Part shown: piece by piece, positions 4,588-30,511 of the stretch
How the letters are laid out: each line of letters opens with the position of its first letter
Position numbering within the stretch: position 1 is the first letter of the stretch
Virus record (IMG/VR): IMGVR_UViG_3300035698_017884
Coordinates: 1-31,071 of that record
Origin: a virus
Length of the DNA: 31,071 nucleotides
Strand: one strand, 5' to 3'
Program-made: the position numbers and the translations under genes
Notes under the pieces: generated by a model
What the model was told of the DNA's origin: nothing
The model's database searches: none
The model's input: the letters and a program-made list of their open reading frames with translations, nothing else

Positions 4588-5010
4588 TTAAACCCCCCTA
4601 TTTGGAATTTCATCTTGTTTTTCATATGGAAATCTAATCCAATAATCACTAGCATCAAATATATGATATGTGGGTTTAATTAAAGATCTACTTTTATAAT
4701 ATAATACAGCAGTATCATACCCTCGATTTACATATTCTAATAATGTTTTTCCTGTATCTGTAATATCATCAGCAATTAAAACTTTATGTTTAGGAAGATT
4801 TGGATCAAGAATAGGTAAATATTCAATTTGTAATTGATAACATATATAAATGGATACAGGAACACCCCCTTTTGGAATACCATATACATATTGATATTTA
4901 TCTTTTGGTAATACATTAATTAAATCAAAAATACAATCATTATACATCTTAGGACTTATACTACGAAATTTCCATTGTTTCACAGTTTCTTTTCCTTTCA
5001 TAATATTCAT
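4588..5010 (-). CDS. phosphoribosyltransferase (gpt/xanthine-type)
   Basis: A type I phosphoribosyltransferase of up to 140 residues. The PRPP-binding loop VLIADDITDTGKTL is at residues 77-90, and YGIPKGGVPVS at 43-53 is the upstream PPi loop. A late segment SDYWIRFPYE resembles the substrate hood of xanthine-guanine PRTases. It would attach a purine base to PRPP for nucleotide salvage. The start is unclear. ATG at 5010 and 5001 lack a good Shine-Dalgarno site, while GTG at 4983 has AAAGGA nine nt upstream. The 5' end overlaps a homing endonuclease gene, so the original start may have been displaced by its insertion. Confidence 0.8.
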   Translation of the reverse strand: MNIMKGKETVKQWKFRSISPKMYNDCIFDLINVLPKDKYQYVYGIPKGGVPVSIYICYQLQIEYLPILDPNLPKHKVLIADDITDTGKTLLEYVNRGYDTAVLYYKSRSLIKPTYHIFDASDYWIRFPYEKQDEIPNRGV

Positions 5011-5797
5011 TAATTTTTTTTCTTATTTTTTCTTTAGTCTCTTCAGATGTCGAAATTCCTTTATTCCAGGGAATTTTCCCTTTTCTAGCTTCACTTATTT
5101 TTTTCTTTGCTTCATTTGATGGAGTTTTCCCTTTAAATCCACTAGATCTTCCTATTGCTTTTAAACTTAATTTATGTTTAGTTTCTTTAGTATGGTGTTT
5201 TCCATAAAAAGGATTATCTTCTCCTGTAAATTTGCCTTTATTATTTTTACTAATAAATTCACATACTTCTTTTGTATGTGTTTTACCATACATTCCATTA
5301 TTTTTCCCTTTTGATTTCAATCCTATTTTTCTTTTTGTTTCTACTGATGTAAGCCTTCCTGTTTGAGATTCACTAATTTTTTTTAATGTTTCTTTAGAAT
5401 GACAATTTTTTAATTCTTTGTTCCAAGGAATTCGCCCACTAGGACCTTCTCCTCCATCAGTCAAATTTGTCAATGGTCCTGTTTTTTTATCTAATCTTCC
5501 AATAAGTAAAATTAATAAAATTTCTAAATCAAAAGCTTCTTGTTCTGATATATTTTCTTTTACCTTTAAAATGATAGGATTTACTTTATCAAACTTAATC
5601 ATTTCAACTAATATTTTTTGTTTTAAACTTAAATTAAGATCATCTAAAAATAAATTTTTATTTTCAATTAAATGACAATCACACCTTTCACCATGACCTT
5701 TGCCAACATAAAATGGTTCATATTCAAATGTATATTCTCTATATGTAAACAATCCTTTTTTTCTTGGATCTAAATAAATATAAGTATAATATTTCAC
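4961..5797 (-). CDS. GIY-YIG homing endonuclease with NUMOD3 repeats (copy 1)
   Basis: A 278-residue free-standing homing endonuclease. The nuclease core has YTYIYLD (GIY position, residues 4-10) and FYVGKG (YIG position, about 29-34), an Arg just after it, and the downstream NLTDGGEG block. From about residue 120 onward a series of NUMOD3-type DNA-binding repeats follows, with motifs such as GKTHTKE and GRIPWNKE. The likely start is GTG at 5797, with AAAAGG upstream. The 3' end overlaps the phosphoribosyltransferase gene by about 50 nt. Two relatives lie at 17335 and 25879. No group I intron is visible around it. Confidence 0.9.
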   Translation of the reverse strand: MKYYTYIYLDPRKKGLFTYREYTFEYEPFYVGKGHGERCDCHLIENKNLFLDDLNLSLKQKILVEMIKFDKVNPIILKVKENISEQEAFDLEILLILLIGRLDKKTGPLTNLTDGGEGPSGRIPWNKELKNCHSKETLKKISESQTGRLTSVETKRKIGLKSKGKNNGMYGKTHTKEVCEFISKNNKGKFTGEDNPFYGKHHTKETKHKLSLKAIGRSSGFKGKTPSNEAKKKISEARKGKIPWNKGISTSEETKEKIRKKINEYYERKRNCETMEIS

Positions 5798-6262: not shown

Positions 6263-7660
6263 TTAAAATTTTATACATCCTCCTTCATCTAGTGTTCCTG
6301 AGTCTCCACCAGACATAAATTTATTAATGATATATTCATTATGTTCTTCATCTAATTTTTCAATCATTTGCATTGAATTCCAAATAGAAAAGGATTTTGA
6401 TTTCTGCTTCCTTGTCATTTTTCCTTGGTTGAATGATTTAGTTATTTCAGTTACTCGTCTTGTAAACTCATTCATGTTTCCTGACTTATAAATATCATAT
6501 AACTCATCAGAAAGATCATTTGCAAAATCTTCAACATCTTTATAAAGTTGTAATACATATAACATAATATAAATAGAAATTGGTTTTGATAATGTGCCTG
6601 TTTCTTCACTATATACAGGTTCTTTTTCATCACTTAATTTTGTAAGTTTATAAACATCAGCTATCCTATTAACTAATGAAAACATTTTATCATTAACAGT
6701 TCCTGTCTTATCAAATCTTAAATGTAATTCATTGCTTTTAAAACTCATTTTCATAAGATTTTTATCATCATTGAATACACTTATATATCTACCATTAAAT
6801 GCACCTTTAAAAATTGATGAAGAATCATATGTTATTTCACAATCAATTCCGTGAAATTCTTTTATATGTTTACTAAATAATCTGTGATGCAATACATCAA
6901 TAAAATTAGCTCCGCCCAACACATGAAATTTAAAAGCTTTTTTACCAGTAGTTTTACAATATTGAATGATTGTAGATAGAGGTATACAATATAAAATTGC
7001 TGGTATTGATATATCTGATGCTCCAAATGCTACGAGACCCCCTGTTGCATAATAATTATAATCAACTCCCAAGTTATCATCAAGTAAAAGTTTACGCCAA
7101 ACGTTATAAATCTGTGGTGTCCTGAAGTGGTGTATATAGATTAACTTGTTTTGTTTTACTTCCATAGGCAGTTGATTTGCTCGTTCATAGGAGCTTTTAT
7201 TCAACTCATATATCTCTTTGTATGATTTAAATATCCCTGCCTCTGTTGTACCAGGACCTGGTGGTATATCAAGCAAGAAAGCGTGAGAGAAATCTTCATG
7301 ATAGTCATTTATAAATTCATAATACATATCAATAAATCCAGGAATATCTTTTGATGGGATTGCTCCCATTGATACTTGGAATCCTCCAGAATCAAGATAT
7401 ATTGTAGAATTCTTCATAAATTTTACTTGATTAAATTTTCTTATTGACTTTATCATTTTTTCAGAATAATTTTTTGCAATTCTCTTGGTTTTATAATTCA
7501 ATCCTGTACCATATGAAAATAAAAATTTACCCACTGAATTCTGAATAAAATTATCTACATTCTCATGTTTAAGATACCCAGGAAAGTCATTAATAAATCT
7601 ATCAATTAATGACGCAAATGTATCAACTCCTGCTAACACATAACTAGCTTGTCTACCCAT
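6263..7660 (-). CDS. dpdA: DpdA-like tRNA-guanine-transglycosylase-family enzyme
   Basis: A 465-residue member of the TGT superfamily. Seen: YLDSGGFQVS with D90 (the general-acid position in TGT), FLLDIPPGPG around D131, TGGLVAFG at 206-213 (the GGL(S)xGE block), FHVLGG at 245-250, and ITYDSSSIF with D279 in the place of the TGT nucleophile. It lacks the classical C-terminal zinc CxC motif of tRNA TGTs. Phage DpdA enzymes replace guanine in DNA with 7-deazaguanine bases and so protect against restriction. QueC and QueE in the same window support that role. A strong AGGAGG precedes the ATG at 7660. The exact DpdA subtype is undetermined. Confidence 0.8.
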   Translation of the reverse strand: MGRQASYVLAGVDTFASLIDRFINDFPGYLKHENVDNFIQNSVGKFLFSYGTGLNYKTKRIAKNYSEKMIKSIRKFNQVKFMKNSTIYLDSGGFQVSMGAIPSKDIPGFIDMYYEFINDYHEDFSHAFLLDIPPGPGTTEAGIFKSYKEIYELNKSSYERANQLPMEVKQNKLIYIHHFRTPQIYNVWRKLLLDDNLGVDYNYYATGGLVAFGASDISIPAILYCIPLSTIIQYCKTTGKKAFKFHVLGGANFIDVLHHRLFSKHIKEFHGIDCEITYDSSSIFKGAFNGRYISVFNDDKNLMKMSFKSNELHLRFDKTGTVNDKMFSLVNRIADVYKLTKLSDEKEPVYSEETGTLSKPISIYIMLYVLQLYKDVEDFANDLSDELYDIYKSGNMNEFTRRVTEITKSFNQGKMTRKQKSKSFSIWNSMQMIEKLDEEHNEYIINKFMSGGDSGTLDEGGCIKF

Positions 7661-13943: not shown

Positions 13944-14516
13944 TTACCTTTCAATATGAATCCCACTCATAAATGTTTCTAAAGGAGTTTCATTTTTAAT
14001 TATTACTTCCTTTTTTTTAATAGGTACTTCTTCTCTTGCAGATACTTTAGATAGTTCAACTAAATCTTTTTTAGTTGTTTTAGTCTTCTTAGGATTAAAT
14101 AATCCTAGAGTTTCATAAATATTATCTTTTTCTTCACTAACATCAATAATATCTACTAATAATCTAATGTCATCCTTTTTATAATAAGGATGTTTCTGCT
14201 TTAATATTTTTGCAATTTTAGTAGTTGTTTGTCTTTGTTTAGGTATATATTGAGGTTTATATCCACAATCCAAAATACATTTCTTCATGAATTTTAATAT
14301 ATCATTTTTATCAAGTGCATACACCCCAAAATTATTAAAATGTTCATTTACCCATGAATTATAAATAGAATTTTTAAAAAACCAAATAATATATTGAGGA
14401 CCTATTTCTTTACCATCCCGAACATCATCTGGAATTTTAGTTTCATTTGACCCATCATATAACCACCTATTTAAAAGTGTATACGGGGATAATTTTTTAT
14501 CTGTTTGATTAATCAA
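13944..14516 (-). CDS. hypothetical basic protein coupled to queC
   Basis: A 190-residue protein of unknown function. The likely start is the TTG at 14516, which has AAAGGA eight nt upstream and overlaps the end of queC by eight nt. An in-frame codon 33 nt earlier lacks a ribosome binding site. The N-terminal 60 residues contain an aromatic stretch (QYIIWFFKNSIYNSW). A Lys/Arg-rich middle (PKQRQTTTKIAKILKQK) and a basic, Thr/Lys-rich linker follow. That composition fits a nucleic-acid-binding protein. Its coupling to queC may tie it to the DNA-modification pathway, which is inference. Confidence 0.62.
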   Translation of the reverse strand: MINQTDKKLSPYTLLNRWLYDGSNETKIPDDVRDGKEIGPQYIIWFFKNSIYNSWVNEHFNNFGVYALDKNDILKFMKKCILDCGYKPQYIPKQRQTTTKIAKILKQKHPYYKKDDIRLLVDIIDVSEEKDNIYETLGLFNPKKTKTTKKDLVELSKVSAREEVPIKKKEVIIKNETPLETFMSGIHIER

Positions 14517-15276
14517 TATTATTATCCTTTGACCTTTCAATATAATCAATATATTGAAGAGTATTATTTAATCTTGAATCAGTTAAATCAAGATGATTTT
14601 TTGCTTCAAATTCATTTTTATATTGTTCAATTATTTTATCATTATAAAATGGAATATATCCCTTTAAATATGACAACGCTGCATTTTTTCTAAAACATGC
14701 TGGGCATGCAAGACATTGATTAGTAGTTAATTGCATCGTATCAAATTCAACTTTAATATCAACAGTCTGTGGAGTTTCTAAAGGAGTATAACATGAAAAT
14801 GTATTAGTCATTATATCAAGTTCATCGCCATGATTAGAATTTGCCCACCATCTAATCATATCTACTTTATATACATCCCAAAAAGGAGAAGTTATTTTAA
14901 CAACTTCCATTCCATCTATTTTTGTAAGAAAATCAGATAAAATATCAAAACATTCCCTATTATTATCAAATATTCTGTCAGATTTAGATCCTCCTATAAA
15001 TATACTTTTAGCATATCTAGATACAGCCAATGTAGTCAATATAATATTTCTGTTAGGAATAAATGCAGTATCAGTTTCCATATCACCCAAAGAAACAGAT
15101 TCATCAATAATACAATCAGGTTCACTTTTTTTAATAAATTCCTTTTCTACCTCTGAATAATTTGAATGTATATCAAAATAAACTGGTTGGGTATTAGGAT
15201 CAATACATTTACGAACATAATCTAAAAGTATAAATGAATCAATTCCGCCTGAGTATAATACAACTGAGCTATACAT
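14509..15276 (-). CDS. queC: QueC-like 7-cyano-7-deazaguanine synthase
   Basis: A 255-residue PP-loop ATPase that converts 7-carboxy-7-deazaguanine to preQ0 with ATP and ammonia. The PP-loop SGGIDS is at residues 9-14. Four zinc-ligand cysteines are present: C162, C188, C191 and C194 (CLACPACFRK). In classical QueC the first two are nine residues apart; here they are 26 apart, so a loop is inserted into the zinc site. It overlaps the Nmad1-like gene upstream by eight nt and is one gene removed from queE. With a DpdA-like enzyme in the window, the product is probably destined for DNA rather than tRNA. Confidence 0.88.
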   Translation of the reverse strand: MYSSVVLYSGGIDSFILLDYVRKCIDPNTQPVYFDIHSNYSEVEKEFIKKSEPDCIIDESVSLGDMETDTAFIPNRNIILTTLAVSRYAKSIFIGGSKSDRIFDNNRECFDILSDFLTKIDGMEVVKITSPFWDVYKVDMIRWWANSNHGDELDIMTNTFSCYTPLETPQTVDIKVEFDTMQLTTNQCLACPACFRKNAALSYLKGYIPFYNDKIIEQYKNEFEAKNHLDLTDSRLNNTLQYIDYIERSKDNNID

Positions 15277-15672: not shown

Positions 15673-16347
15673 CTATACAAAACCAAATATGATATGGTTT
15701 CTACTTGAAAAATTAACTCCAAATTTTTCAATCAAGTCCATTGTAGGACCTGAATTTTTAATTAAATCTTCACGAGTTTTACCTTCAGGCATTACCCATA
15801 TTTGATTTTTATCTCTTTGTAAAGGAACAATAGCATCTAAACAAGTATAAATATATTGAGCTCCATCATTTACAAATTTCAAATATAAATGTTCATCTTT
15901 GATAACTGATAATATATGTTCAACTTCGGTTTGTAATTCAACCTCACTAAAAAACTTTGGTGAATATATCACTTTGATATCTTTATCACGTAATTCAAAA
16001 TCAGATACTATATTCAACAATGCTGATACATTATATCCATTAGTTTCAATATTACATACACTGAAGTCAGTTTCACGCAGGAGTGTACGAGTATTATCTA
16101 AATTATCACGATATGATGGTTCTCCTCCTGTAATCATTAATCCGCTTGTCAATTTCACTTGTAAATTTATATCTTCGATTGAGTAATCAGCTTCACAACT
16201 AATTCTCATTTTTACAAGAGTATCACACCAAGGACAAGCGTTTTTATGATCAACTCTATCACACGCCCTATGCCGAGCAATTGTCATTTGTCTTCCTGAA
16301 TCAGGTCCTTCTCCTTGATACGTGTTAAATACTTCTATCAATTTCAT
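15673..16347 (-). CDS. queE: QueE-like radical SAM 7-carboxy-7-deazaguanine synthase
   Basis: A 224-residue radical SAM enzyme of the preQ0 pathway, which rearranges carboxy-tetrahydropterin to 7-carboxy-7-deazaguanine. Motifs: the N-terminal YQGEGPDSGR typical of QueE (residues 10-19), the cluster cysteines C29, C38 and C41 ending in CPWCDT, and MITGGEP (71-77) for SAM binding. The cluster spacing is C-x8-C-x2-C rather than the general C-x3-C-x2-C; other QueE variants with inserted cluster loops are known. It heads the queE, Nmad1-like, queC, basic-protein series. QueD and FolE are not seen here, so the pterin precursor steps lie elsewhere or in the host. Confidence 0.88.
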   Translation of the reverse strand: MKLIEVFNTYQGEGPDSGRQMTIARHRACDRVDHKNACPWCDTLVKMRISCEADYSIEDINLQVKLTSGLMITGGEPSYRDNLDNTRTLLRETDFSVCNIETNGYNVSALLNIVSDFELRDKDIKVIYSPKFFSEVELQTEVEHILSVIKDEHLYLKFVNDGAQYIYTCLDAIVPLQRDKNQIWVMPEGKTREDLIKNSGPTMDLIEKFGVNFSSRNHIIFGFV

Positions 16348-17334: not shown

Positions 17335-18000
17335 TTATTCTTTAATACCTTTATTCCAAGGAATAGAACCCTTTAAAGAATTACTTATTTTTAATCTTGT
17401 TTCTTCTGAACAAGGAATTCCTTTATTCCAAGCTGGTTGTCCTTTTTTTCCATAATTATGATTTTTTTCACCTAATGTAGATTTTTTAATTTTCAATTTT
17501 GTTTCTTCTGATAATGGTTTTCCTCTATTAGCACTACCTATTTTATATTTATCTTCTTTGCTTCTTTTTTTTCCTTTCCAATATCCATCCCACCCTTTTA
17601 ACGATTTACTTATTTTTTCTTTAGTTTCATTTGTATGACTATCTCCCTCTCCGCCATTAGTTAAATTTACAAGAGGACCTAATTTCAAATCATTTCTTCC
17701 GATAGCCCAAATTAACCATATTTCTAAATCAAAAGATTCTTGTTCTTTCAATCCTTCTTCGACTTTTAAAATTATAGGTTCTAAATTTTCTTTTAAAATT
17801 TTTTTAATTTTATAAAATTTATGTTTATTACTTGATGATTTATTACGATTTATAGCTTCTCTTAAATGATATTTATATTGATCATAAGAACCTTTACCTA
17901 CATAAAATGGTTCATATTTAAATACATATTTACCATATGTAAAACCCCCTTTTTTACGAGGATCTAAATATATATAAGTGTAGAATCTATTTTCTTTCAT
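17335..18000 (-). CDS. GIY-YIG homing endonuclease with NUMOD3 repeats (copy 2)
   Basis: A 221-residue free-standing endonuclease. Core motifs are YTYIYLDPRKKG and YEPFYVGKG, then LTNGGEG, followed by NUMOD3-type repeats with SEETKLKI, GKKGQPAWNKG and GSIPWNKG. The start at the ATG at 18000 overlaps the end of the glycosyltransferase gene by 14 nt; a further upstream in-frame ATG lies deeper in that gene. Its stop is about 60 nt before the next gene's start. It is clearly related to copies 1 and 3 but shorter, with fewer repeats. No intron core is seen around it. Confidence 0.9.
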   Translation of the reverse strand: MKENRFYTYIYLDPRKKGGFTYGKYVFKYEPFYVGKGSYDQYKYHLREAINRNKSSSNKHKFYKIKKILKENLEPIILKVEEGLKEQESFDLEIWLIWAIGRNDLKLGPLVNLTNGGEGDSHTNETKEKISKSLKGWDGYWKGKKRSKEDKYKIGSANRGKPLSEETKLKIKKSTLGEKNHNYGKKGQPAWNKGIPCSEETRLKISNSLKGSIPWNKGIKE

Positions 18001-19267
18001 ATCCGTTTTCTTTAGACAAAAGAAGTTTATTACATTTATCATAAATTTCTTCAAAATTAAGAAATTCGTAACAAGGCGCAGTGCCTCCTGGTTTTATTGC
18101 TTCACATGTTTGTCCATGTAAATAACAATATTTTCCATTAAATTTACATACTTGACTTGCTGAAGGTTCAACCCAATCAGCATTTTTATATGTATCCATT
18201 CTCATCTCTCCACCAAAAGGACCATAAATTCCTAAAGTTGGACATTCTACTCCTTGAGCTAAATGAATCATTGAAGTATCAGGCGATATTGCTAATTTAG
18301 ATTTGGCTAACAATGATATACTCATAGGAATTTCTGTAGAATAAGGCGAAAAATTAAATATTTGATTTCTATATTTTTCAGGTATTGCAAGTTTAATAAA
18401 TGCATCTAACCTATCCCTCATTCTAGGAGAATCAGTAATAACAATTCTATGACCATCTTCAAGGAGGGGAATAAATATTTTAGCCCATAACATTGTTCCC
18501 GGTGTTCTTATTGGAGTTGATGATCTTAATTGTGCAGTTATATATTCATAATGATTTATCTTATTTTTCTTAAGAAATTCATCTCGTATTTTATCACATG
18601 AAGGAAGAGTTGTTAAAATAGGTCTAAGTTCTTTGTCTGGAATATTTAATCCCATCCATTTAGAAAACAACCTATATGAATTAGTTGTTTCTGCTTCTTC
18701 ACATCTTTCAATAACCCCCTCATATGTACAATGATAATTACATTTATTAATATAATCTGCAGAAACAGGAAATCCTATTATTTGATCAATACAATCCCAA
18801 TTTTGAATAAGAGGCATATATGATGGAGCACATGTAAAATATATTTTACAAGTAGGCCATTGTTTTTTCATCCATAATAATGAAGGTTGAATAAAACATA
18901 AATCTCCATATCCTCCGGTTCGCCAAATTAATATATTTTTATTATCTAAATTTTCACCCCTATACGGTTTATATAATTTAGCAAACGGTATCATATTTGG
19001 TTTAAGTCTAGATTCCCCTTTTATACCTTTTTCCAATGATAAATAAATATAAGTCGAAAGTACTTTATCAGTTCCTTTTTTCCAAGTTATAGATGAACTA
19101 TTATTTATTGAAAATGAAAATGTTTTCTTAGCAGTAGCAATTACCATACCAGGAGGATATTCAGCTAATTCTTCAATCGTTTTTCTTTTCTTTAACGATT
19201 CAGTAGATATCCCTAATTTAGTGAGAAGCTCTGGGGTTAGATGTTTCTTTAGTTCCTCTGGGTGCAT
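17987..19267 (-). CDS. glycosyltransferase family 9 (heptosyltransferase-like)
   Basis: A 426-residue GT9-type enzyme. The N-terminal Rossmann domain begins with ILIWRTGGYGDLCFIQPSL (112-130), which matches the GxGD nucleotide-sugar motif of heptosyltransferases. The C-terminal domain has the donor-binding block SPDTSMIHLAQG (328-339) and GIYGPFGG. About 100 extra residues precede the first domain. The family transfers heptose or similar sugars to LPS. In a phage it could alter host surface sugars, or glycosylate a virion protein or DNA base. AAGGAG precedes the ATG at 19267. The gene overlaps its neighbours at both ends, by 50 nt upstream and by the endonuclease start downstream. Confidence 0.85.
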   Translation of the reverse strand: MHPEELKKHLTPELLTKLGISTESLKKRKTIEELAEYPPGMVIATAKKTFSFSINNSSSITWKKGTDKVLSTYIYLSLEKGIKGESRLKPNMIPFAKLYKPYRGENLDNKNILIWRTGGYGDLCFIQPSLLWMKKQWPTCKIYFTCAPSYMPLIQNWDCIDQIIGFPVSADYINKCNYHCTYEGVIERCEEAETTNSYRLFSKWMGLNIPDKELRPILTTLPSCDKIRDEFLKKNKINHYEYITAQLRSSTPIRTPGTMLWAKIFIPLLEDGHRIVITDSPRMRDRLDAFIKLAIPEKYRNQIFNFSPYSTEIPMSISLLAKSKLAISPDTSMIHLAQGVECPTLGIYGPFGGEMRMDTYKNADWVEPSASQVCKFNGKYCYLHGQTCEAIKPGGTAPCYEFLNFEEIYDKCNKLLLSKENGYERK

Positions 19268-20349: not shown

Positions 20350-20384
20350 CAAAAAATAAGTCCCTACCATAAAATGATAGGGAC
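20350..20384 (-). terminator. intrinsic terminator after the H1-like gene
   Basis: On the minus strand GTCCCTA and TAGGGAC pair over 7 bp around an 11-nt loop and are followed by TTATTTTTTG. It lies 22 nt after the stop at 20407. It would keep the small H1-like gene as its own transcript. Confidence 0.8.
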
Positions 20385-20406
20385 CTATTATAATTCAAAT
20401 CAAATA

Positions 20407-25761: not shown

Positions 25762-25806
25762 AAAAGTGCCCTGTCGGTCCCCTCAATGGGGCACTTTTTT
25801 TTTTCT
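25762..25806 (+). terminator. strong intrinsic terminator
   Basis: AAAAGTGCCC pairs with GGGCACTTTT over about 10 bp, followed by a run of ten Ts. It ends the transcript of the 24866 gene and the structured RNA before the third homing endonuclease. Confidence 0.9.
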
Positions 25807-25878: not shown

Positions 25879-26766
25879 ATGAATATTTTTTATACATATA
25901 TCTATCTTGATCCTCGTAAAAAAGGACCTTTTACATATGGAGAATTTGAGTTTGAATATGAACCATTTTATGTCGGTAAAGGACATAATAACAGATATTT
26001 ATCACATTTAATTGAAGCTAACAATATAAAAAATAAATCTTGGAAACATAATAAAATTCGAAAAATAAAAAAAGAATTAAAATGTGATCCTATTATAAAA
26101 ATAATTCATAATAATTTATATGAAAAAGAAGCATTAAAATTTGAAATATGGCTTATATGGTTAATTGGTAGAAAACAATTGATTAATGGTCCATTAATCA
26201 ATTTAACTGATGGGGGTGAAACTATTATAGGACTTATTTTTAGTGATGAACATAAAAGAAAAATCAGTCTTGCAAATAAAGGAAAATTAATAGGATCAAA
26301 AAATCCCATGTGGGAAAAACATCATTCAATTACAACTCGTCAAAAAATTAGTAAAGCAAGTACAGGTAAAACACATTCAGAGGTAACTCGTCAAAAAATT
26401 AGTAAAGCAAATAAAAATAAACCAAAATCAGAAGAACACAAAAAGAAGTTAAGTAAACCAAAATCAGAAGAACATAAAAACAAAATATCAAAAAGTATGA
26501 AAGGGAAAATTTCTGGGATGAAAGGAAAAACCCATTCAGAAGAAACTCGTCAAAAAATTAGTAAAAAATGTAAAGGATATAAACATACATCTGAAGCAAA
26601 AAATAAAATGGGACATTCATATAAAATAAATTATATAAATGGAGAACAAAAAATAATTAAAAATTTATCAACTTTTTGTTCTGAACATAATTTTAATTAT
26701 TTTCAAGTATATGGGTGCATGAAACAAAATTTACAATATCAAAATTTTTTTGTTATTAAAATTTAA
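25879..26766 (+). CDS. GIY-YIG homing endonuclease with NUMOD repeats (copy 3)
   Basis: A 295-residue endonuclease on the opposite strand to copies 1 and 2. Core motifs are YTYIYLDPRKKG (residues 5-16) and YEPFYVGKG, then NLTDGGE. Near-identical NUMOD3-like repeats follow (GKTHSEVTRQKISKA, GKTHSEETRQKISKK). The C-terminus (KIIKNLSTFCSEHNFNYFQV) resembles a NUMOD1-type helix-turn-helix. AAAAGG precedes the ATG at 25879. Its stop overlaps that of the convergent DNA polymerase gene. The internal repeats, a tandem SEEH.KK block included, suggest recent repeat expansion. Confidence 0.9.
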   Translation: MNIFYTYIYLDPRKKGPFTYGEFEFEYEPFYVGKGHNNRYLSHLIEANNIKNKSWKHNKIRKIKKELKCDPIIKIIHNNLYEKEALKFEIWLIWLIGRKQLINGPLINLTDGGETIIGLIFSDEHKRKISLANKGKLIGSKNPMWEKHHSITTRQKISKASTGKTHSEVTRQKISKANKNKPKSEEHKKKLSKPKSEEHKNKISKSMKGKISGMKGKTHSEETRQKISKKCKGYKHTSEAKNKMGHSYKINYINGEQKIIKNLSTFCSEHNFNYFQVYGCMKQNLQYQNFFVIKI

Positions 26767-29700
26767 AAAGTCAATATTTCATTACTCTTGGTAAATAATG
26801 GCGATAATAACAAATTTATTCTGTCATCAACTGCAAAACTTACCATTGTTTTTATATCAATTTTAAAATAGTCTGGAACTTTTTCTTCTTGGTCAGGAAC
26901 AACAATACTTTTAATTCCACTAATTTGAATTAATCCTGAATTAGTTTTTATGTGAGGCATATCATTCCAAATCTCTCTAACTTCATCAGGAGCTTTTGAA
27001 AGATCAACTCCTAAAATAGGAAATTCTCGACCTCTCATTCCCGGTCTAAATATATCATAACATAAATGATTCCATAATAACATTCCCCTAACTCCCCGAG
27101 GGATCATTTTATATTCATTTAAAGGTTTTCCATAACCTACCGGTTTACCTATTCTTGAGTCACCATTAAATGCTAAATCTTGAACCATAACTTTTCTTAC
27201 TTCAACATAATCTAATATTTCATCTAAATCAGTTTCACTTTTTTCAAGAAGCATGTCGATTATTTTTTTGAGCATTTCTTTTGTAATTTCTGAGAAATCA
27301 CTTCTTTGAGTTTCAATCCCTTTAATATCAATTTCATCTACATCATTTCCTTCTTGGTTGACAATATGACAAGCATACCTTTTCTTTGCTTCAAGGAAAT
27401 ATGCTCTATCAGCAACAATTTCCTGTTTCAAATCTAGATATGACCATTCTTGTGGTATGTTATGTCTTTTTACAAAATTACTTAACATTGTTTTATTTAC
27501 AACGGTATCTAATTTTGCTACTTCATTTAATACTCGTTTAGTAGTAATTGTACCCCCTCCACATTTATCATCAATAAAATCTCCCATTTTAAGAAACATT
27601 GAATCAGTATCAATATATAATAAGTATTTTAGATTATTATCAATCTTTTGCTCGAACTCAATATCAAACTCAAATTTATCACTTATCATATAATTATTCA
27701 TATGATATGCTGCAAATCTAATTGCTTCTTTTCCTGGTCTAGTAACTGAATAACCTAAGTCAGCATTATAAAATCTGAAATGTTCATTTAATAAAACACC
27801 GTATAATGAATTGGCTAGTATCTTCAATGACCATTGTTTATTATCATACTGTTTCTTTTTTGTTTCATCTTTTTCTTGAAATTTTAATTTTTTAAATTTC
27901 TTTCTATCTTCAAGTAACATATCATATATATTAAAGAATATTGATTTTTCTTTGTTATGTCCACAAAATAAACATCCTGATAAATTTATGGTAGCATTAT
28001 TTTCTTTTATTATATCAAATAATTTTTTCCATGTAATAGTAACTTTATTGTTAGTATGAATTGGATCTTCTACATACCATAAGGTTTCAGTTTTATCAAT
28101 TGAATCAGGATCATAAATTAAAGTAAATGCTAATTCTTCATCAATTTTACCAACCAGTGTATTAGGTCCAATATTCCAAGTACGAATTATATTAGGATAT
28201 AAACTTGAATAATCAAAGTCAACAAGCCATTCATATTTTCCTCCTACTGGTTCTTTTACATATGCTCCAGCTACATCTCCCTTTATAACATTGTCTCGTT
28301 TAGTTCTCATACATAATCCTTGTCCTTTTAGATTACGTAAAAACAAACCTTCAGCTTGCCCAATTGTTGATGAAGCCCCTTTCCAGGTAGTTGTAGCAGT
28401 TGTTCTCAAAGCATTTGTTAATTCAATATGTCTAAGTTTAGTATTTAGTTTTACAATTAGTTCAACATCTTTTCTATTATATATTATATACTCGTCAATG
28501 TATTGTTCATATAAATCAAACCAAGGACATGAAAATGGATGCTTGCCTTGTTTAAGATGTTTTTGTGAAACTGCTTCAAGTGTATTACTCGCATCTTTTT
28601 GTTGATTATAACTTTTGTATATTGTTAACATATCAATTACAATATATCCTGATATAATAATAAGGAATGATTTTGCATCTACATAACAATCATCATATCG
28701 AGATAAGTCTCTTGGGTTCATTCCTAAGTTATGCATCCTATTATAAATATAGCCTATATCAAAAGCAACATTCCATGCAGTTAACACATCTGGATTTATT
28801 TGATGAAGTCTTTTTGTAAACCTATTTAACATTGCTACTTCGCTTGTGAATACTGTTAACTTATCTTTGTGTTCATAAGTTTCAATCCACTTATCTAATT
28901 TAGGATCAATTCTTTCGGGAATTTTATAAAGTATAGTTTCAATTTCTCCATCATCAAGAGCATATGATATTAATGAAATAGGATGAGCAGCTTTAGATGC
29001 TTCTGGAAATGATCTGTCATCAAAAGTATATACTTCAATATCAATAAATAATATATTTTCATTTAATATTTCAGGTTCACCTTGATTGTGCATATAATAA
29101 TCTACAGAATGTTTAAGTGCAATATCAATATCTGACTCGTATGTATTAACTCCTCGTTTTCTATCTCGGTAATTACACATAACAGGTCTAAGATTTTTGA
29201 ATGATTCAACCATTCTTGAATTACCACTAGCTGATTCATAATAGTAATAATTTTTTGTAGTATTAGGATATTCATAATAAATTTTAGTGTTTTGTTTATC
29301 TCTGAATACATACATAAGTCTATCAAACTTTGCATAATATTGAATATCAACAAGTCGGTATTCATCAGTATAAAATTTGTCGTTTAATCGGTATGAAACA
29401 GGGTTATCTTCGTCGTTCTTATATAAGGGAAGGGGTTCTACAGATACTTCTTTATCGGGAGTTTTATTACATATAGGTTCTGCTGGGGTTATATTCTTCG
29501 CTTCTTCTGAGTTAAATAAATCTCCGAGACCAAAGGCTAGAATATCCTCATTTTCTATATCTCCTTTACCTAAGTTTCTTCTAACTTCCATAAATCCATT
29601 TTCAAATTCAATTCCTTTATCAGATTGTAATCCCCCATTTTTATTTATATAAGAAGGATGAGGCATTACATATATTTTTCTTTCTTCCCACAAATGTGTT

Positions 29701-30128
29701 TGATAAGCTTTTTTCAATATTCCTGTTTTACCTAATCCATAAGTATACAATGACATATTACCAAAACATACAATTAATTTTGGATTACATATTTTAATTA
29801 ATTCATATAGGTTAGATTTACAATTATCAACCTCATGATAAGTAGGACTGCATGGAGTATCATCTTCATTTATTGTTAAACATAATACTGAATTTGTAAG
29901 AACATAATTAAAGTCTTGTTCAATAAATTCTTTAAAAGGCTTTTTAAATGTATTTTCTGTAAAAGGAGTTTCATTATTTATATCTTCTTGAGTAGGACTT
30001 TCACCGGAAAATATAATATCACATTTTGATAAATCTCCATCTTGTATATTAGTTTTAAGAATACAAGATGGGGCGGCAAGCAATTTACACTTATCACAAT
30101 TACCATATGACTTGGTTATAGTAAACAT
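26763..30128 (-). CDS. family B DNA polymerase with N-terminal family-4 UDG domain
   Basis: An 1121-residue fusion. Residues 1-185 match family-4 uracil-DNA glycosylase: C11, C14, C83 and C103 with 4Fe-4S spacing, SGESPTQED (41-49), NPKLIVCFG (115-123) and MPHPSY (155-160). A linker of about 170 residues follows. The polymerase has Exo I FIDIE (361-365), Exo II around NVAFD (453-457) and Exo III YNRKD (550-554). It also has motif A DFDYSSLYP (637-645), motif B KILANSLYG and motif C YIDTDS (838-843). KKRY lies in the thumb-side region. The enzyme should replicate the phage genome with proofreading. The fused glycosylase may scan or remove uracil, or a modified base. Only a promoter-like motif separates it from the upstream small gene. 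Confidence 0.93.
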   Translation of the reverse strand: MFTITKSYGNCDKCKLLAAPSCILKTNIQDGDLSKCDIIFSGESPTQEDINNETPFTENTFKKPFKEFIEQDFNYVLTNSVLCLTINEDDTPCSPTYHEVDNCKSNLYELIKICNPKLIVCFGNMSLYTYGLGKTGILKKAYQTHLWEERKIYVMPHPSYINKNGGLQSDKGIEFENGFMEVRRNLGKGDIENEDILAFGLGDLFNSEEAKNITPAEPICNKTPDKEVSVEPLPLYKNDEDNPVSYRLNDKFYTDEYRLVDIQYYAKFDRLMYVFRDKQNTKIYYEYPNTTKNYYYYESASGNSRMVESFKNLRPVMCNYRDRKRGVNTYESDIDIALKHSVDYYMHNQGEPEILNENILFIDIEVYTFDDRSFPEASKAAHPISLISYALDDGEIETILYKIPERIDPKLDKWIETYEHKDKLTVFTSEVAMLNRFTKRLHQINPDVLTAWNVAFDIGYIYNRMHNLGMNPRDLSRYDDCYVDAKSFLIIISGYIVIDMLTIYKSYNQQKDASNTLEAVSQKHLKQGKHPFSCPWFDLYEQYIDEYIIYNRKDVELIVKLNTKLRHIELTNALRTTATTTWKGASSTIGQAEGLFLRNLKGQGLCMRTKRDNVIKGDVAGAYVKEPVGGKYEWLVDFDYSSLYPNIIRTWNIGPNTLVGKIDEELAFTLIYDPDSIDKTETLWYVEDPIHTNNKVTITWKKLFDIIKENNATINLSGCLFCGHNKEKSIFFNIYDMLLEDRKKFKKLKFQEKDETKKKQYDNKQWSLKILANSLYGVLLNEHFRFYNADLGYSVTRPGKEAIRFAAYHMNNYMISDKFEFDIEFEQKIDNNLKYLLYIDTDSMFLKMGDFIDDKCGGGTITTKRVLNEVAKLDTVVNKTMLSNFVKRHNIPQEWSYLDLKQEIVADRAYFLEAKKRYACHIVNQEGNDVDEIDIKGIETQRSDFSEITKEMLKKIIDMLLEKSETDLDEILDYVEVRKVMVQDLAFNGDSRIGKPVGYGKPLNEYKMIPRGVRGMLLWNHLCYDIFRPGMRGREFPILGVDLSKAPDEVREIWNDMPHIKTNSGLIQISGIKSIVVPDQEEKVPDYFKIDIKTMVSFAVDDRINLLLSPLFTKSNEILTF

Positions 30129-30231: not shown

Positions 30232-30405
30232 TTATACAAAAAAAGAAACACCAAAGGGTTCATCATACCTCCCACTTTGGTGTTTCATTTTTCTTGTATA
30301 CTTCGTTTTGTCTTTCATTGCTTTACCAGGAGGGGGTATCGGTTTTCGAAACCCTTTTATTATATCCCGGTATGAAATGAAATCTGGTACTTTGCGTATT
30401 TTCAT
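30232..30405 (-). CDS. small ArfA-like protein with terminator inside the ORF
   Basis: A 57-residue basic protein. AAGGAGG lies seven nt before the ATG at 30405, the strongest ribosome binding site in the window. The segment KDKTKYTRKMKH (about residues 31-42) follows the pattern K-x-K-x-x-Y-x-R-K-x-K-H of ArfA, the alternative ribosome-rescue factor that recruits RF2 to stalled ribosomes. A 12-bp terminator hairpin plus T7 lies before the stop codon, so most transcripts should lack a stop. In bacterial arfA this same design makes production depend on failure of tmRNA. The ArfA match is short and by eye; the N-terminal part is not obviously alike. Confidence 0.55.
   Translation of the reverse strand: MKIRKVPDFISYRDIIKGFRKPIPPPGKAMKDKTKYTRKMKHQSGRYDEPFGVSFFV
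30238..30286 (-). terminator. intrinsic terminator overlapping the 3' end of the small gene
   Basis: GAAACACCAAAG (30286-30275 on the minus strand) and CTTTGGTGTTTC (30256-30245) pair perfectly over 12 bp around an 18-nt loop. Seven Ts (30244-30238) follow. The stop codon of the small gene is at 30234-30232, three nt beyond the T-run. Termination in the T-run would give an mRNA without a stop. Confidence 0.88.
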
Positions 30406-30511
30406 AACACACCTCCTTATTTTTTTGTTCTTAAATATTAAATATCCTTCTTAATTATATAAGATTACTAACTTATAAGTCAAGAACAAAAGATAAAAAG
30501 GAAATTATGAC

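Follow-up and report, generated by a model that had tools for sequence, protein, structure and literature searches.

Near one end of a 31-kb record from an uncultured virus, analysed here over its whole length of 31,071 nucleotides (the window), the minus strand carries a small gene whose terminator precedes its own stop codon. This layout raises the question of whether the gene encodes a ribosome-rescue factor of the ArfA type that is made from nonstop mRNA. From the sequence comparisons described below, we consider it probable that it does, with the encoded protein belonging to a DUF7230-like branch of the ArfA superfamily.

The gene and its terminator

The open reading frame (ORF; 30405-30232, minus strand) starts with an ATG at 30405 and comprises 57 codons followed by TAA. 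Its translated product has 57 residues, MKIRKVPDFISYRDIIKGFRKPIPPPGKAMKDKTKYTRKMKHQSGRYDEPFGVSFFV*, and we annotate it as an ArfA-like (DUF7230-type) gene on the basis of the translation, PHROG and DUF7230 matches and the family alignment. A putative sigma-70-type promoter, TTGACT-18 nt-TATAAT, is located upstream on the same strand (30483-30454). This site was assigned by consensus match only, agreeing at 11 of 12 positions, and scores best in a consensus scan of the final 5 kb of the window; the transcript is expected to start near 30447. The Shine-Dalgarno sequence AAGGAGGT (30418-30411, minus strand) is found 5 nt upstream of the ATG. Within the ORF, near 30335 on the minus strand, CCCCCTCC shows complementarity to GGAGG in this gene's Shine-Dalgarno sequence (30411-30418), a pairing that is absent from the predicted fold.

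A preliminary description of the locus reported a small basic protein with a K.K..Y.RK.KH segment like that of ArfA, and the motif is indeed present at residues 31-42 (KDKTKYTRKMKH; 30315-30280, minus strand), where both the family and the ArfA alignments show a conserved tail. Judged from these alignments and from published ArfA and BrfA structures (PMC5378476, PMC6881298), the tail is the counterpart of the ArfA segment that is located in the ribosomal mRNA channel. The same description noted a perfect 12-bp hairpin and a run of seven T residues within the last codons, ahead of the stop, and both are found there as well. The arms of the hairpin, GAAACACCAAAG and CTTTGGTGTTTC (30286-30245, minus strand), enclose an 18-nt loop, and the T-run (30244-30238, minus strand) marks the predicted 3' end of the RNA. 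The placement can be refined, as the hairpin already begins in the KH codons and the T-run ends just 3 nt (GTA) ahead of the genomic TAA (30234-30232, minus strand), so that hairpin and T-run lie wholly in frame.

Folding energies are -29 kcal/mol for the 76-nt 3' end and -11.4 kcal/mol for shuffled sequences (z -6.15), with none of 200 shuffles equally stable. Stems of at least 12 bp with at least five GC pairs and a T-run did not occur in 40 shuffles of the whole window, scored on one strand. An Rfam search gave sub-threshold microRNA chance matches only. Two more strong terminator-like hairpins with T-runs, of similar quality, are present elsewhere in the window (25762-25798, plus strand; 20356-20388, minus strand).

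Because the only in-frame stop codon starts 3 nt past the T-run, most transcripts of the gene, perhaps not all, should lack it; the position of the terminator thus predicts a TAA outside most transcripts. A minority could include the stop, since termination a few bases later would take it in. The terminator stands between the promoter of the small gene and its downstream neighbour, which encodes a fusion of uracil-DNA glycosylase (UDG) and family B DNA polymerase (26763-30128, minus strand; Pfam UDG E 3.4e-13, DNA_pol_B 9e-41). This left-hand gene is encoded on the minus strand, and its right-hand counterpart is directed away from 30512. As no plus-strand gene needs a terminator here, the hairpin most plausibly serves the small gene's own transcript of about 210 nt.

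Relationship to DUF7230 and ArfA

The window protein matches PHROG_18092 (E 7.9e-7) and PHROG_2701 (E 1e-5) and scores 21.3 bits (E 3e-4) against DUF7230 (PF23876), below the curated cut-off of 27 bits. By these scores it is a divergent DUF7230-type member. A profile search against the ArfA family PF03889, named in the preliminary description as a check, gave no match at E 10 and places the protein outside that family. Its N-terminal half, ISYRDIIKGFRKPIPPPGKAM, is without a clear counterpart of ArfA Leu19, Leu24 and Phe25; the region of the RF2 patch is occupied by DIIKGFRKPI, where no confident alignment is obtained. With the window protein alone as query, the PDB search produced repeat-protein and scaffold noise and no ArfA, phage records gave weak Campylobacter and Staphylococcus matches only, and a defence library gave no match. 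In viral contigs, peptide patterns led to no confirmed close relatives, and searches based on the exact hairpin and on the polymerase gave no matches.

The family to which the protein is assigned is a large set of phage proteins ending in K.KY.RK.KH (PHROG_18092/2701, Pfam DUF7230). Searching viral contigs with a DNA pattern for KTKYxRKxKH yielded at least 120 matches; those listed are mostly proteins of 34-70 residues with variable N-terminal halves and tails that end in DKTKYxRKxKH. The K, Y, R, K, K and H of the tail are invariant in an alignment of 46 family members, and 45 of the 46 relatives match the DUF7230 profile at E 1 or better. Set against E. coli ArfA, several members exhibit an unmistakable ArfA layout, e.g. 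L031 (AKSLIAQPLFRSRITKDKTKYSRKQKHK) and L029 (KVKDNALKALVTSPTYRPKVERDKTKYKRKQKHK), and the ArfA-like N-terminal half is kept in these two as well as in L063 and L125.

Profile comparisons extend this likeness to the family. In an hmmsearch of all PDB chains, a profile of the 46 phage members (A2) finds E. coli ArfA as its sole match (E 1.9e-6), and ArfA is still the sole PDB match (E 0.005) of a profile from which all obviously ArfA-like members were removed (A3). Aligned to classical ArfA with hhalign, A2 gives E 3e-8 (95%) and A3 gives E 2e-5 (76.5%). L029 and a protein of Pseudoalteromonas phage J2-1 score above the curated cut-off in both families, with 48.4 and 41.3 bits for PF03889 (cut-off 25.5) and 31.0 and 28.6 bits for DUF7230 (cut-off 27). 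Chains of BrfA, the Bacillus subtilis protein YqkK, were absent from the PDB matches of the window protein and of profiles A2 and A3. We take these comparisons to mean that the DUF7230 family and ArfA are homologous. The likeness to ArfA claimed in the preliminary description therefore holds at the family level, through the PDB profile search and the bridging phage proteins, but not for the window protein alone against PF03889.

Occurrence of in-frame terminators in the family

Several unrelated phage subfamilies have ORF-internal terminators that start at the KH codons, and the in-frame nonstop layout initially proposed for the window gene thereby recurs within the family. These terminators were scored with a strict detector (a T-run and an uninterrupted stem of 8 or more with three or more GC pairs), which replaced a loose energy-based hairpin control that produced many false internal hairpins. 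Among 173 distinct viral members, part of which had been found by patterns demanding a T-run 12-42 nt after KH, the terminator lies inside the ORF in 9, spans the stop in 5 and follows it in none. The corresponding numbers for 3180 control ORFs from the same contigs and the same search interval are 1, 3 and 112 (Fisher p 9e-10). The p value is 6e-8 without the window and L144 (RPKYPRKSKH), a member that was counted in the 173-member test, judged doubtful and removed in the recount, and 6e-6 with one count per hairpin family. Because of the T-run-selected sampling, we also scanned the interval of 43-73 nt, where one further terminator inside the ORF and none after the stop were seen. Among the 94 members that were not selected for T-runs, the terminator is inside the ORF in one and after the stop in none.

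The strict internal hairpins differ in sequence and begin -12 to +6 nt from the end of the KH codons. They are found in L130, L151, L159/L170/L232, L166 and L310, and a looser rule adds L229 and L258. L029 was not counted as a nonstop case, as its hairpin is 3 nt ahead of the stop and the transcript probably includes the stop codon. The design appears to come and go, since L020 and L085, close relatives of L232, are without any terminator. In 159 of the 173 viral members the terminator is missing from this position and the ORF has a normal stop, ending about 18 nt past KH; the nonstop layout is therefore not a family-wide requirement.

DUF7230 is rare in bacteria, occurring in 13 of 369 gammaproteobacterial genomes. 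Ten genomes (L312, L313, L315, L343, L344, L347, L349, L356, L357 and L364) carry a terminator immediately behind the motif, and the frame stays open past it. The L315 frame continues for about 290 nt after the hairpin, so that its stop codon clearly falls outside the gene, and L312 follows lgt-thyA-folA, a cellular neighbourhood. The genomes of L312, L313 and L315 contain no PF03889 match above the cut-off. In L350, L351 and L352, very long stems that lack a T-run (-35 to -59 kcal/mol) come immediately after the KH codons and in two cases cover the stop codon. These stems resemble a double-strand cleavage site and may represent a nonstop design that depends on RNase III, like that of E. coli arfA. 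The classical arfA gene L366, which served as a positive control, has the design known from the literature. A statistic for the bacterial loci was dropped, as their control ORFs were too few and partly mis-framed.

The many members with an ordinary end are what one would expect if this small, basic protein served the phage in another way, e.g. by binding RNA, DNA or ribosomes, and the frame were open over the terminator by chance in a compact genome. A frame that stays open across 15 codons is not rare at random, and in five members the stop lies inside the hairpin. However, terminators lie inside the ORF in 9 of 14 family cases compared to 1 of 116 in control genes of the same contigs, and unrelated hairpins have this position in several subfamilies and in bacteria, with frames that continue for as much as the roughly 290 nt seen in L315. 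We therefore regard a chance overlap as unlikely.

Proposed function and genomic context

If the gene encodes an ArfA-type rescue factor, transcription would stop at the internal terminator to give an mRNA of about 210 nt without a stop codon. Such a nonstop mRNA would place the factor under repression by tmRNA: as long as host tmRNA/SmpB is active, every product would be tagged and degraded. When trans-translation is overwhelmed or blocked in infection, e.g. by many broken mRNAs, the product of about 55 residues would accumulate, and its basic KH tail could enter the vacant mRNA channel of ribosomes that have stalled at an mRNA end. A release factor would then be recruited or activated and the peptide freed. 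A product ending at the T-run should keep its functional tail, since everything through KH precedes or lies within the hairpin. In ArfA, the tail sits in the empty mRNA channel and Leu19, Leu24 and Phe25 bind RF2; ArfA cut at Asn47, two residues beyond KH, is active, whereas ArfA cut after Met40 is inactive (PMC5378476). BrfA and ArfA both use Lys-His to contact U534 of 16S rRNA (PMC6881298).

More generally, the phage DUF7230 family, part of which is nonstop-built, may rescue stalled ribosomes. A wider and more tentative proposal, which we hold to be plausible rather than probable, is that DUF7230 and its PHROG counterparts in many phages and scattered bacteria constitute an unrecognised ArfA-related rescue superfamily, in part autoregulated via nonstop mRNAs. 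Its divergent members, among them the window protein, may use a release factor or an activation mode other than that of ArfA-RF2. ArfA and BrfA both act in a species-specific way.

Conservation throughout the family is confined to the tail, while the N-terminal half, which activates the release factor in ArfA, is highly variable and divergent in the window protein. This would also be compatible with an ArfA-derived inhibitor or decoy that plugs the mRNA channel with its tail without activating a release factor, and that competes with tmRNA-SmpB or slows host translation. Yet the nonstop design suits a backup rescue factor better than an inhibitor, and the ArfA-like N-terminal half has been kept by four members (L029, L031, L063 and L125), making a decoy decidedly unlikely. 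A leader-ORF attenuator, in which the ribosome position decides hairpin formation and thereby read-through into the DNA polymerase gene, would fit the same-strand start of that gene some 100 nt downstream and the region's strongest promoter match upstream of the small ORF, but it is very improbable, as relatives of the same design occur in other neighbourhoods, the hairpin goes with the gene, and the observed conservation of the protein sequence would be superfluous in an attenuator peptide.

As a candidate rescue-factor gene, the window gene resembles that of ArfA (YhdL, PF03889), found in gamma- and beta-proteobacteria, in its small basic product, KxKxxYxRKxKH tail, hairpin in the coding sequence and nonstop mRNA design. 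It differs in being phage-borne, in its divergent N-terminal half without a PF03889 match and in its tail, which has DKTKY in place of KKGKGSY and is three residues shorter in alignments. The hairpin starts at the KH codons, whereas that of E. coli arfA lies about ten codons later. PHROG score and invariant residues make DUF7230 (PF23876)/PHROG_2701, 6310 and 18092, of unknown function, the protein's own family, although it scores below the DUF7230 cut-off and the majority of members end in a normal stop without a terminator. BrfA shares the internal terminator, the tmRNA-repressed nonstop mRNA and the Lys-His tail contact in the mRNA channel, a design that is convergent with that of ArfA (PMC6881298). 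In contrast, its N-terminal helices have no ArfA counterpart, and BrfA was absent from all of our search results. ArfT from Francisella is likewise a small, release-factor-dependent rescue protein, but its gene has no internal terminator (PMC6299226).

Phage-encoded ArfA-type proteins have been annotated in Citromicrobium phage RXM (g10; PMC8953757), pelagiphage HTVC027P (gp30; PMC12753301) and Pseudoalteromonas phage J2-1. The two papers mention phage ArfA in passing only, by domain or name, and it also appears in a few sequence records. Of ten ArfA genes checked in phage records, one has a strict ORF-internal hairpin; it belongs to an unverified Pseudomonas record that is perhaps host DNA. 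In the open-licence literature we found no mention of DUF7230 or its link to ArfA, and no description of the nonstop design in phage genes. Phage ArfA itself has thus already been named, and the DUF7230-ArfA link and the phage nonstop design may be new. If the proposed rescue role is correct, it would provide a testable function for a widespread phage protein family. It would also mean that phages, which need host translation amid mRNA cutting, come with backup ribosome-rescue factors of their own, and that viruses too use the nonstop mode of control known from arfA and brfA.

The neighbouring fusion protein has 1121 residues, with the UDG domain at the N-terminus and a complete family B DNA polymerase after it (26763-30128, minus strand); the nearest phage polymerases are merely about 25% identical across the polymerase part. 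The window copy of the family adjoins a replication gene, as does L002 (786-917; Campylobacter phage NCTC12673 gp049), a member without a terminator that is located between clamp-loader and RNase H genes. Elsewhere in the window, TGT-like, QueC-like and QueE-like genes (6263-7660, 14509-15276 and 15673-16347, minus strand) suggest a 7-deazaguanine modification pathway. Three similar ORFs that start with YTYIYLDPRKKG.FTY (4961-5797 and 17335-18054, minus strand; 25879-26766, plus strand) presumably represent a homing-endonuclease-type (GIY-YIG-like) family inserted at different places.
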